The notes beneath the pieces are model-generated. The model did not search any database. It worked only from the letters and a program-made list of their open reading frames with translations, and was not told the DNA's origin. A stretch of 64,000 bases of DNA, taken from the NCBI RefSeq assembly GCF_003284895.1, contig NZ_QMDV01000001.1:461080-525079 (forward strand). Direction: 5' to 3'. This document shows positions 61,188 to 64,000 of the stretch, in pieces (positions within the stretch are counted from its first letter, which is position 1; each line of letters opens with the position of its first letter). A program made the position numbers and the translations under genes. The stretch comes from Pontibacter arcticus. Its GTDB lineage: Bacteria; Bacteroidota; Bacteroidia; Cytophagales; Hymenobacteraceae.

Positions 61188-61892
61188 ATGGCCGCCAATA
61201 TCCACATCAGCCTTAAACACCAGTCTTACCTGCGCGATCCGGAGAGTACAGAACTAGGTAAAACCATTATTGCCCAAAGTATAAACCTGCTGGATGAACT
61301 GGGTTTTGAGGATTTTACATTCAGGAAACTGGCCGCTGCCATAGGCTCCACGGAAGCATCTGTATACCGGTATTTTGAGAACAAGCACAAACTGCTGGCC
61401 TATCTGGTATCGTGGTACTGGGCATGGCTGGATTATCTTGTCACGTTTCAGACACATAATATACCAGACCCGCGCGAACGCATGAGCCGCGCCATTGAGG
61501 TAATTGTGAAAGCAGGCCAAAACGATGATCCAACCATCGTATACATAGATGAGCGTGTGCTGCACCGGGTAGTGGTAGCCGAATCTGCCAAGGTACACCA
61601 CACCAAGGAAGTAGATGCCGAAAACAAAGCAGGCTATTTTTTAGAGCTGAAACATTTCTGCCACTCGCTGGCGCTGCTTATACTGGAAATAAACCCTGCT
61701 TACTCCTACCCGCACGCGCTTGTAAGTACGATGCTGGAGGCAGCGCATCAGCAATTATTTTATGCACAGCACCTGCCTTCCCTTACCGATGTTAAAGCAG
61801 ACCGTTATAACGAGACAGCAGATTTTCTCAAACATATCGTATTTGCTGTAGTTGATAGTAAAAAACACGCTAATCCTGAGCAGAATGGGTAA
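61188..61892 (+). CDS. TetR/AcrR-family transcriptional regulator
   Basis: A 234-residue repressor-type regulator with an N-terminal helix-turn-helix (about 25-70: LLDELGFEDFTFRKLAAAIGSTEASVYRYFENK) and a ligand-binding C-terminal domain. Its stop overlaps the start of the ABC exporter gene by 8 bp, so it probably regulates its own operon. No operator palindrome was identified. The ligand could be an exported compound or lipid. Confidence 0.9.
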   Translation: MAANIHISLKHQSYLRDPESTELGKTIIAQSINLLDELGFEDFTFRKLAAAIGSTEASVYRYFENKHKLLAYLVSWYWAWLDYLVTFQTHNIPDPRERMSRAIEVIVKAGQNDDPTIVYIDERVLHRVVVAESAKVHHTKEVDAENKAGYFLELKHFCHSLALLILEINPAYSYPHALVSTMLEAAHQQLFYAQHLPSLTDVKADRYNETADFLKHIVFAVVDSKKHANPEQNG

Positions 61893-63621
61893 TAAATCAG
61901 ATAAGAAGGCCACGCCTGTACAACGCTTCCTGCAATTACTGTCGTTGGAGCGGCGCGAGATTGTGTACCTGTATGTTTACGCAATTGCGGCCGGAATCAT
62001 CAGTTTGGTGCTTCCGTTGGGTATCCAGAGCATCATCGGGTTTGTATCCAGCGGGCAGGTAACGGTATCGGTTGTAGTACTGATCAGCCTGATCGTGCTG
62101 GCGCTTTTAATAGTGGGAGGCCTGCAGGTAATGCAACTTTGGCTAGTGGAGTATATGCAGCAACGCCTGTTTGCGCGCACCGCTTCCGATTTTGCGTACC
62201 GTGTACCACGCCTGCAACCCGAAGCGCTGCGCAAGCACTATCCTCCCGAGCTGATGAACCGCTTTTTTGATGTTGTTACGGTGCAAAAGGGCCTTGCTAA
62301 AATTCTGATAGACTTTTCGACGGCAGTCATACAGATCGTTTTCGGGTTGATCCTGCTTTCTTTTTATCATCCATACTTCATCGTTTTCGGTTTTATTTTA
62401 ATCCTGACGCTAGGGCTTATTATCTGGCTGACAGGCGGCAAAGGCATCGAGACAAGTATAAAAGAGTCTACTTACAAGTATAAACTGGTTGCCTGGCTCC
62501 AGGAAATGGCTCGCTCGCTCAGCACGTTTAAGCTGGTAGGACACACCAACCTGCCCATGGACCGCACCAATAATTATGTACAAAGCTACCTGAATGTCCG
62601 GAAGAAACATTTCAGTATTCTAATGACGCAGTATTTCAGCTTTGTAGGGTTTAAGACGTTTATCACAGGCGGCTTGCTGGTGCTGGGTTGTGTGCTGGTG
62701 GTGCAGCAGGAAATAAATATCGGGCAGTTTGTAGCTTCCGAGATCATTATCATCCTTATCATGACCGCTGTCGAAAAGATCATCATCAAATTGGATACAG
62801 TATATGATGTATTAACCAGCCTCGACAAAATAGGGCATGTAACAGATTTACCTCTTGAACCAGAAGGCGGCTTCAACCTGGACGAATTAGCTTTGAATGG
62901 CGGGCTAAGTATAACAGCCAGGAACCTGAGCTATAAATTTGAAAACGCTAAAAAAATGGCTTTGCAGGATATTAGCTTTACTATAAATCCTGCTGATCGT
63001 ATCTGTCTATCAGGGTTTGATAGCTCGGGCAAAAGCACACTCATTAGCCTGATGCTTGGGTTATTCCCGTCTTATGAAGGCAGCCTGGTATACAACGGCA
63101 TTTCGCTGCACGATCTGCATAAAGGCAACCTGCGCAGCCTGATTGGTGATAACATTTCGAATGAACAGGTTTTTGACGGCACATTGCTGGATAATATAAC
63201 GCTTGGCGCCGATTTACCTATACAGGATGTGTTATGGGCCATTGAACTGACGGGCTTATCAGAATTTGTACATACCCTGCCGGATGGCTTGCACGCTTAC
63301 CTGACCGGCGGCAGTATGCGGTTGCCAGGCAGCGTAGCCCGTAAAATAGTACTGGCCCGTAGCCTGGTGAAGCGCCCGAAACTCCTCATCATCGAAAACC
63401 TGTGGGCAGGCATGACCAAAAAGGAAAAGATAAATTTCTTCCGGCTGCTTGCAAGCCCGCAATTCGACTGGACCATTATTATTGTATCCAACGACAGGGA
63501 AGTAATGCAGTTGTGTACCCAGACCCTGGTGCTACAAGACGGCAATCAGGTAGCTTTTGGCCCGTACGAAGAACTAAAGCACCTTGCCATTTTACAAGAG
63601 TTAACCGATATAACAGCTTAA
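61885..63621 (+). CDS. ABC-type exporter with a degenerate ATPase domain
   Basis: A 578-residue fused transmembrane and nucleotide-binding protein, like type I exporters (permease helices about 20-330, ATPase about 345-578). Walker A is kept (GFDSSGKST, K383). Other ATPase motifs are not: the signature LSGGQ is LPGSV (480-484), Walker B ends in E504-N505 for DE, the H-loop His is N536, and the Q-loop Gln appears to be Ser. It is encoded between a TetR regulator and an HlyD adaptor gene, with 8-bp and 3-bp junctions. It may bind ATP but seems unable to hydrolyse it normally; a partner subunit or a non-transport role is possible. Confidence 0.88.
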   Translation: MGNKSDKKATPVQRFLQLLSLERREIVYLYVYAIAAGIISLVLPLGIQSIIGFVSSGQVTVSVVVLISLIVLALLIVGGLQVMQLWLVEYMQQRLFARTASDFAYRVPRLQPEALRKHYPPELMNRFFDVVTVQKGLAKILIDFSTAVIQIVFGLILLSFYHPYFIVFGFILILTLGLIIWLTGGKGIETSIKESTYKYKLVAWLQEMARSLSTFKLVGHTNLPMDRTNNYVQSYLNVRKKHFSILMTQYFSFVGFKTFITGGLLVLGCVLVVQQEINIGQFVASEIIIILIMTAVEKIIIKLDTVYDVLTSLDKIGHVTDLPLEPEGGFNLDELALNGGLSITARNLSYKFENAKKMALQDISFTINPADRICLSGFDSSGKSTLISLMLGLFPSYEGSLVYNGISLHDLHKGNLRSLIGDNISNEQVFDGTLLDNITLGADLPIQDVLWAIELTGLSEFVHTLPDGLHAYLTGGSMRLPGSVARKIVLARSLVKRPKLLIIENLWAGMTKKEKINFFRLLASPQFDWTIIIVSNDREVMQLCTQTLVLQDGNQVAFGPYEELKHLAILQELTDITA

Positions 63622-63624
63622 CCT

Positions 63625-64000
63625 ATGGCACCCGAATTAAAAGGAACCGAACATATAAGCACGTCCCGTCCGGACATCATGCAGCAGGTGCAAACCCCGC
63701 GCTTCGGCCACAGAGTAACCTACTGGATCGGTGGTATATTTCTGGTCATTTTTCTTTGCCTGTTTCTGCCCTGGACGCAAAACATCCGGTCGCAGGGGGT
63801 GCTAACGGCACTTTCGCCAGAGGACAGGCCCCAGACATTGCAGGCCACTATTGCAGGCCGCATTGAACGCTGGCATGTGATGGAAGGCGCTTTCGTGAAA
63901 AAAGGAGATACCATTGCCAGCATTTCAGAGATCAAGGAAAAGTACATGGACCCCGATTTTCTGGCCCGTTTAGGCGAACAGGTAGATGCCAAGAAAGGAG
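63625..64000 (+). CDS. HlyD-family periplasmic adaptor (3' end outside window)
   Basis: Membrane fusion protein linking the inner-membrane transporter to an outer-membrane channel. About 125 codons are visible from the ATG at 63625: a cytoplasmic N-terminus, one membrane helix (about 36-53, IGGIFLVIFLCLFLPW), and the start of the biotinyl/lipoyl-like hairpin domain, TLQATIAGRIERWHVMEGAFVKKG. It begins 3 bp after the exporter gene, so the operon TetR-ABC-HlyD continues past the window, where a TolC-type gene would be expected. Confidence 0.9.
   Translation, partial: MAPELKGTEHISTSRPDIMQQVQTPRFGHRVTYWIGGIFLVIFLCLFLPWTQNIRSQGVLTALSPEDRPQTLQATIAGRIERWHVMEGAFVKKGDTIASISEIKEKYMDPDFLARLGEQVDAKKG

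Follow-up and report, generated by a model that had tools for sequence, protein, structure and literature searches.

The window analysed here, 64,000 nucleotides of the Pontibacter arcticus contig NZ_QMDV01000001.1 (positions 461,080 to 525,079, forward strand), holds at 61885..63621 a gene for an ABC-exporter-like protein with a degenerate ATPase domain. The gene encodes an HlyB/PCAT-like ABC exporter subunit, the inner-membrane part of an HlyD/TolC system. In this exporter family, catalytic loss in the nucleotide-binding domain (NBD) was followed by complete deletion of the NBD, twice, with HlyD and TolC kept. We consider it very probable that the exporter works without ATP hydrolysis by its own NBD. 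On balance we favour an ATP-independent, perhaps proton-driven, HlyD-TolC tripartite exporter that is analogous to SbmA but separate from it.

The NBD of the window protein was aligned with those of six canonical exporters. The gene and the positions concerned are as follows.

61885..63621, + strand: ABC-exporter-like protein with a degenerate ATPase domain, 578 aa, P0001 (open reading frame (ORF), Pfam, alignment, AlphaFold, fold search)
62908..63579, + strand: degenerate NBD, residues 342-565 (Pfam, alignment, AlphaFold; purifying selection)
63013..63039, + strand: Walker A, GFDSSGKST, with K383 retained and S380 at the second Gly (alignment)
63157..63159, + strand: Q-loop position, S425 for Gln (alignment)
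63322..63336, + strand: signature motif LPGSV (L480-P481-G482-S483-V484) for LSGGQ (alignment)
63394..63399, + strand: end of Walker B, Glu504-Asn505 for Asp-Glu (alignment)
63490..63492, + strand: H-loop position, Asn536 for His (alignment)

In the same alignment the D-loop Asp position is occupied by T511. The six canonical controls retain 6-7 of the 7 scored features, so the motif losses are not an alignment error. The Walker B Asp-Glu, LSGGQ, H-loop His and Q-loop Gln by which a type I secretion ATPase is judged catalytic are all missing from the window protein. A preliminary description of this DNA, made from the letters of the window, had named the losses in the signature motif, Walker B, H-loop and Q-loop, and the alignment confirmed them. 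It had also called Walker A intact; K383 is indeed present, but Ser380 replaces the second Gly of GxxGxGK[S/T].

Pfam matched ABC_membrane at residues 29-295 and ABC_tran at 360-503 (44.4 bits; cut-off 25). The AlphaFold model of the window protein (mean pLDDT 88) folds as a complete exporter protomer; in a fold search with it, the best query TM-scores were 0.86-0.88, against chains of TM287/288, HlyB and PCAT1. TmrAB and solved HlyB/HlyD complexes were also among the closest solved folds.

Homologues at E ≤ 1e-40 were found in 128 of the 150 genomes searched in the taxonomic family of the window species, 225 of 291 in its order and 150 of 295 in its class. The closest named relatives of the window protein are Pontibacter proteins (79-80% identity). 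After removal of proteins sharing the last 300 aa, 309 rows, including 6 canonical ones, were left of 336 proteins. The 246 full-length members scored for motifs are a non-random set of best-scoring and hand-picked loci, from which rows with identical C-terminal 300 aa had been removed. The Q-loop Gln was found in 1 of the 246, the signature S-G-G in 1, the H-loop His in 14 and the Walker B Glu in 12. Walker B Asp was present in 129 and the Asp-Glu pair in 10. The Walker A Lys was present in 223 and replaced by Arg in 18, and the P-loop is absent in several members, including L042, L202 and L208. The best retention was 4 of 7 features, in 8 members. Glu and His occurred together in 2 members (L181, L182), and Gln, Glu and His together in none. 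The comparison with relatives proposed in the preliminary description thus showed the same losses to be conserved among the members examined.

The degenerate NBD is under purifying selection. Among 37 members from the window genus, the median dN/dS was 0.21 for the NBD (321 of 666 pairs usable) and 0.11 for the transmembrane domain (TMD; 330 of 666), pairs with dS outside 0.1-1.5 being excluded. In Hymenobacter (35 members) the medians were 0.36 and 0.15. The NBD evolves about 2-fold faster than the membrane domain. Homologue frames listed in the family, order and class searches were open with few exceptions. A decaying pseudogene is refuted for the family as a whole by the conserved losses, the open frames and a dN/dS below 1, and the kept HlyD-TolC linkage also stands against it. 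We find this explanation hardly credible, in line with the preliminary judgement, and it draws on isolated broken copies such as L042, L043 and L335. In L042:6477-10481 (genome G003, genus g3) the gene is split by an insertion-sequence-like element, with transposase-like ORFs between the halves, and HlyD and TolC follow. The Hymenobacter-like copy at L043:7116-8708 (G122) loses its frame within the NBD at about residue 480, with a frameshift-like end, and is followed by HlyD- and TolC-like ORFs. At L335:2976-5159 (G730) the membrane domain and the NBD lie on two overlapping frames of 498 aa and 236 aa, possibly an intermediate stage in the loss of the NBD, or else an error of sequencing.

Two forms of the protein have no NBD. 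In the taxonomic family of the window species, 32 of the 128 matching genomes carry a TMD-only form, whose match ends at about residue 326 in an open frame of 337-409 aa; all 32 loci were retrieved. Of 121 genomes searched in family f11, 112 matched; 36 of these carry 37 TMD-only genes, and 14 of the genes were retrieved. L199 was dropped from this form, its frame running off the contig end. Each matching Hymenobacter-like genome (L034-L041, L053-L076) has a single form, TMD-only or full-length, and none showed the two together at E ≤ 1e-40. In f11, G279 and G218 carry both. In the other form the membrane domain is fused directly to HlyD in one protein of about 750 aa (L189-L194). Further fusion candidates, 34 frames of 746-840 aa, came from 87 genomes of one order, and 20 of these loci were retrieved. 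A hidden Markov model (HMM) search confirmed HlyD in 26 of 26 fusion loci, which are 25 distinct genes since the fusion of G566 was retrieved twice (L191, L358). A motif check had found the adaptor in 19 of the 20 newer fusions, and the HMM search found it in all.

The neighbours were kept when the NBD was lost. At TMD-only loci with room, HlyD lies ≤300 nt downstream in 48 of 48 and TolC is next in 47 of 47. At full-length loci the corresponding counts are 128 of 134 and 123 of 126.

We then placed these forms on a membrane-domain tree of 93 rows, from which L204, L200 and the canonical outgroups were left out. Besides the window protein it includes 45 sampled full-length members and 7 added ones, 8 fusions, 13 of the 14 deep loci and 18 of the 20 TMD-only representatives. 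An earlier, quicker tree had left out L042 as gappy. The TMD-only proteins, about 335 aa long, form one clade (100/99) and the fusions a second (100/100), and this tree requires a minimum of two changes in NBD presence. Match lists had given the impression of repeated NBD loss in many genera, which the trees reduce to two losses. In the earlier tree the TMD-only genes of Hymenobacter, f11 and f61 (a family of another order) also grouped together (100). Horizontal spread is likely, because the TMD-only proteins of f1, f11 and f61 form one clade.

The direction of change comes from a deep clade whose 14 loci belong to other classes of the phylum and show 31-35% identity; the 13 that are in the tree group at 100/100. 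These proteins have a full Walker A in 14 of 14, Walker B Asp-Glu in 13, the H-loop His in 11 and the Q-loop Gln in 0, and HlyD of the same kind adjoins 13 of the 14 loci. Since the deep clade is near-canonical, the loss runs from near-canonical to dead to absent. Altogether 18 loci were retrieved from outside the window's class, and the 4 others (L394-L397) are of the degenerate form. This rules out that all relatives outside the class are near-canonical, and the split between near-canonical and degenerate proteins therefore follows the gene tree, not taxonomy alone. The preliminary description held that relatives with canonical motifs would mark the window gene as simply decaying. Within the class none were canonical, whereas the deep clade of other classes is nearly so; this split points to a direction of change and not to the decay of a single copy.

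Several features of the membrane domain are referred to below. TM numbering was assigned in this analysis.

61912..62859, + strand: TMD, residues 10-325, six transmembrane (TM) helices and an elbow helix, present in every architecture (AlphaFold; TMD-only relatives match about 9-326)
62149..62151, + strand: Glu89 (TM2), E in 261 of 261 full-length, 48 of 48 TMD-only and all fusion loci, and E or D in 14 of 14 deep relatives
62518..62538, + strand: coupling helix 2, residues 212-218, NBD docking (AlphaFold; conservation tables)
62740..62742, + strand: Glu286 (TM6), conserved acid
62773..62778, + strand: Glu297-Lys298 (TM6), conserved acid-base pair, Glu297 on about the same helical face as Glu286 and Asp308

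The helices of the AlphaFold model are TM1 23-55, TM2 61-109, TM3 120-161, TM4 163-210, TM5 223-273 and TM6 279-320. Between full-length and TMD-only proteins, conservation in the coupling helix 2 region falls from 98% to 29% at F215, from 93% to 19% at R210 and from 83% to 4% at L223. This helix sits in the stretch of greatest excess entropy in the TMD-only proteins, which are otherwise less varied (mean entropy 0.93 vs 1.40 bits). Five of the 6 fusions tabulated have lost residues 220-225 together with a part of the first coupling region.

An NBD encoded elsewhere was searched for at the loci and in whole genomes. NBD-like ORFs were absent from the retrieved loci of 45 of 48 TMD-only members and 6 of 6 fusions. 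The three exceptions (L034, L038, L041) each have such an ORF in a single locus, at a distance of several kb from the TMD-only gene. The family NBD was used to search 30 chosen NBD-less genomes (22 with TMD-only genes, 8 with fusions; two <90% complete), and no copy of it was found in any of the 30. The search returned only seemingly ordinary ABC proteins, which every one of the 30 has (best E 3.7e-28; 23-32% identity among the matches listed). Of the positive controls, genomes that have the family NBD, 4 of 4 matched, with E values from 2.5e-47 to 2.9e-158; the strongest match was to the genome that supplied the query. The window operon itself has no second ABC gene, and no further ABC_tran match occurs on the same contig until about 37.6 kb downstream of the window gene. 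The preliminary description had suggested that a second ATPase might be needed, perhaps from an ABC gene beyond the window; these results, with coupling helix 2 dissolved or shortened, disfavour it.

The residues that are near-invariant in every architecture and differ from canonical exporters are E89, K135, S195, K198, R239, E286, E297 and K298. Eleven canonical exporters served as controls here, six from f11 and five of seven candidates from the window's own genome; the other two, L379 and L380, were left out as they gave no usable match. Positions 286 and 297 are both acidic in 259 of 261 full-length proteins, in all 48 TMD-only proteins, in all 26 fusion loci (25 genes) and in 12 of the 14 deep relatives, and in none of the 11 canonical exporters. 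R239 is Arg also in 4 of the 11, and D308 is Asp in 7. E286, E297 and D308 follow one another at intervals of 11 residues; on an ideal helix each interval shifts them by 20 degrees, which would put them on almost the same face of TM6. The idea that these acids arose as a replacement for ATP is weakened: deep near-canonical relatives already have them, which argues that they did not arise for that purpose.

We propose the following course. The ancestor would have been an ATP-driven exporter of the HlyB/PCAT-like kind. Throughout the lineage found in the window's class, the NBD lost its catalytic residues, and in most species it would persist as a folded, docked, structural and possibly nucleotide-binding domain. 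Two lineages deleted it, one leaving a stand-alone membrane domain and one a membrane domain joined to HlyD. The substrate would still cross via the membrane domain, and protons may be taken up through the conserved TM2 and TM6 carboxylates and the basic residues, much as in SbmA. We give the proton gradient an even chance of being the driver. Proton coupling is put forward conditionally, because the residues predate the catalytic loss and E297 is missing in two Sphingomonadales proteins.

Three other explanations have to be weighed against this one. The membrane domain might be a passive scaffold or anchor that holds HlyD in register with TolC, the conduit exporting periplasmic material without a motor of its own. 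The linkage of every NBD-less locus with room to HlyD and TolC and the solved HlyB/HlyD complexes among the closest folds would fit such a role, and the scaffold for the adaptor proposed in the preliminary description gains weight because relatives have the membrane domain fused directly to HlyD. A pure anchor, however, is not expected to keep near-invariant charges along TM2, TM3, TM4, TM5 and TM6 in all architectures, and we regard this explanation as rather unlikely. The same description had also raised a repurposed receptor, for which no evidence turned up, though no direct test was aimed at that role.

The two remaining explanations keep ATP in the cycle, and we hold each of them to be improbable. 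A separate active ABC ATPase could dock on the membrane domain and drive it. The absence of an ABC gene from the window operon, of NBD-like ORFs from nearly all NBD-less loci and of a family NBD from the 30 genomes argues against this, as does the state of coupling helix 2. A generic, unrelated NBD is still conceivable, as all 30 genomes hold ordinary ABC proteins; the coupling helix 1 region (ICL1) is conserved in TMD-only proteins, and the available part of one article reports a YddA-type ABC protein whose TMD and NBD genes are split between different operons (PMC13316013). Alternatively, the degenerate NBD might bind ATP, dimerise or slowly hydrolyse it in a non-canonical way, and so act as a switch. 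The frequent Walker A Lys and Walker B Asp, the purifying selection and the complete predicted NBD fold are in keeping with this; Arg for Lys in 18 members, the P-loop missing in several and the existence of NBD-less members are not.

For the ATP-independent exporter itself, the following points weigh on the other side. ICL1 is conserved in the TMD-only proteins, though shortened in 5 of the 6 fusions tabulated. The Walker A Lys is retained in 223 of 246, which leaves a possible role for nucleotide binding. Deep relatives whose NBDs are near-canonical already have the charged network, and its role may be to bind substrate or to hold gates. The two Sphingomonadales relatives read, in which the NBD also looks dead, have not kept E297. 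The alignment of canonical TMDs, on which the comparison of charges depends, is weak (about 20-26% identity). The linkage to TetR is missing in the TMD-only form, a same-strand upstream TetR being found in 1 of the 49 loci then classed as TMD-only.

Among known systems, HlyB and PCAT are closest in architecture. The family was placed by NCBIfam nearest to the NHLM and type I secretion ABC models, with scores far below the cut-offs (TIGR03375, 163.2 of 693.1 bits; TIGR01846, 109.1 of 725.55; TIGR01842, 121.9 of 510.15). The window protein likewise consists of a type IV exporter TMD and an NBD, which the TMD-only and fusion relatives do not, and the neighbours are those of HlyB-HlyD-TolC, an HlyD adaptor and TolC. 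Many members have about 150 extra residues at the N terminus, and these long members share with HlyB and PCAT the apparent order of N-terminal domain, TMD and NBD. With the model of a 739-aa member (pLDDT 83), Foldseek aligned PCAT1 and HlyB chains over about 695-757 columns, with a whole-chain rmsd of 8.7-21 Å. The column counts imply that the N-terminal domain of the model is covered, consistent with a C39-like domain; Pfam gave zero C39 matches in the three long members scanned. The family differs from HlyB and PCAT in that catalytic residues are lost, the NBD is deleted in two clades and the N-terminal domain is missing in the window protein and its genus.

Heterodimeric exporters such as TM287/288 and TmrAB tolerate one degenerate ATP site, and the other stays consensus. 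They are among the closest solved folds, but no partner ABC gene is found in the operon here. EmrAB-TolC pumps, of the major facilitator superfamily, combine a proton-driven inner-membrane part with an HlyD-like adaptor and TolC; their membrane fold is unrelated to the ABC exporter fold.

The closest precedent for an exporter fold that works without an NBD is SbmA/BacA (SLiPT). According to the available part of one article, SLiPTs have the ABC exporter membrane fold with no NBD and no coupling helices, carry conserved membrane glutamates (a ladder) and use the proton gradient; it was proposed in 2026 that SbmA goes back to an ABC ancestor whose NBD was lost and that SLiPTs derive from YddA-like proteins (PMC13316013). 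The TMD-only and fusion relatives likewise have no NBD, and their conserved membrane acids resemble the glutamate ladder as far as the available text describes it. The differences are several. The window protein carries an NBD; six TM helices are predicted and no TM0 pair, compared with eight per SLiPT protomer, where TM0a/b flank TM1-6; and the family sits with HlyD and TolC. TMD-only members lost only the second coupling helix, unlike SLiPTs as described there, and the family scores nearest to NHLM and type I secretion models and not to the YddA-like origin which that text gives for SLiPTs. No SbmA/BacA family was among the Pfam matches of the window, TMD-only or fusion proteins scanned (the scan of L339 used an estimated ORF range); we take SbmA_BacA to be the Pfam family for SLiPTs. 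No description of the present exporter family was found in the open-access literature, judged from titles and abstract starts among the matches listed.

The other genes of the operon are as follows.

61188..61892, + strand: TetR-family regulator, operon gene 1 (Pfam TetR_N, E 4.8e-9)
63625..64000, + strand: HlyD-family periplasmic adaptor, truncated by the window end; 452 aa in the genome (L033:5705-7063)
L033:7060-8487: TolC-family outer-membrane gene, beyond the window, after HlyD

The exporter ORF runs from an ATG at 61885 to a stop at 63621 with zero internal stops, and an alternative TTG start 33 nt upstream would give 589 aa. It overlaps the end of the TetR gene by 8 nt from the ATG or by 41 nt (61852-61892) from the upstream TTG, which suggests translational coupling. 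The gene is therefore complete in a TetR-ABC-HlyD operon, as the preliminary description had it, and the operon extends beyond the window into the TolC-family gene. In the whole genome the gene after TolC is on the opposite strand.

Among the 134 full-length loci with ≥1 kb of upstream sequence, 84 have a TetR relative on the same strand and ≤500 nt upstream. In eight TMD-only loci of f11 (L325-L329, L333, L334, L336) and 5 of 6 fusion loci (L189-L193), the upstream TetR-like gene is on the opposite strand and does not head the operon. The neighbours gave no clue to the substrate: beyond the operon genes and TetR (107 loci), other families occur in at most 20 of 224 loci, and at least one of these is an antisense reading of the gene itself. 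PADLOC gave zero matches to anti-phage defence for the three proteins scanned. Twenty-two plasmid records carry a relative, 15 of them from Sphingomonadales genera. The two Sphingomonadales plasmid loci read (L399, L400) have the same three-gene operon and an NBD without a recognisable Walker A, and one adjoins a DUF2309 gene. On a 102-kb Riemerella anatipestifer plasmid record (L403), the operon adjoins a murF-alanine racemase fusion gene. A resistance predictor calls this neighbour vanT at only 34% identity, and it is probably a housekeeping gene.

ABC transporters are the textbook case of ATP-powered transport. There is about an even probability that the present family is the second case, independent of the first, in which an ATP-driven ABC exporter became an ATP-independent transporter, here within a two-membrane HlyD-TolC machine and with the intermediates still alive: a near-canonical NBD, a dead but folded NBD, no NBD, and a membrane domain fused to the adaptor. 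Living species show the stages of NBD loss in clear succession, for two separate losses, and they do so in a system that resembles type I secretion and crosses both membranes. The label 'ABC transporter ATP-binding protein', which some relatives carry in their records, need not denote an ATPase. The relatives with a dead NBD, with no NBD and with the adaptor fusion are ready sets for asking what an exporter membrane domain is capable of without ATP, and what drives it.

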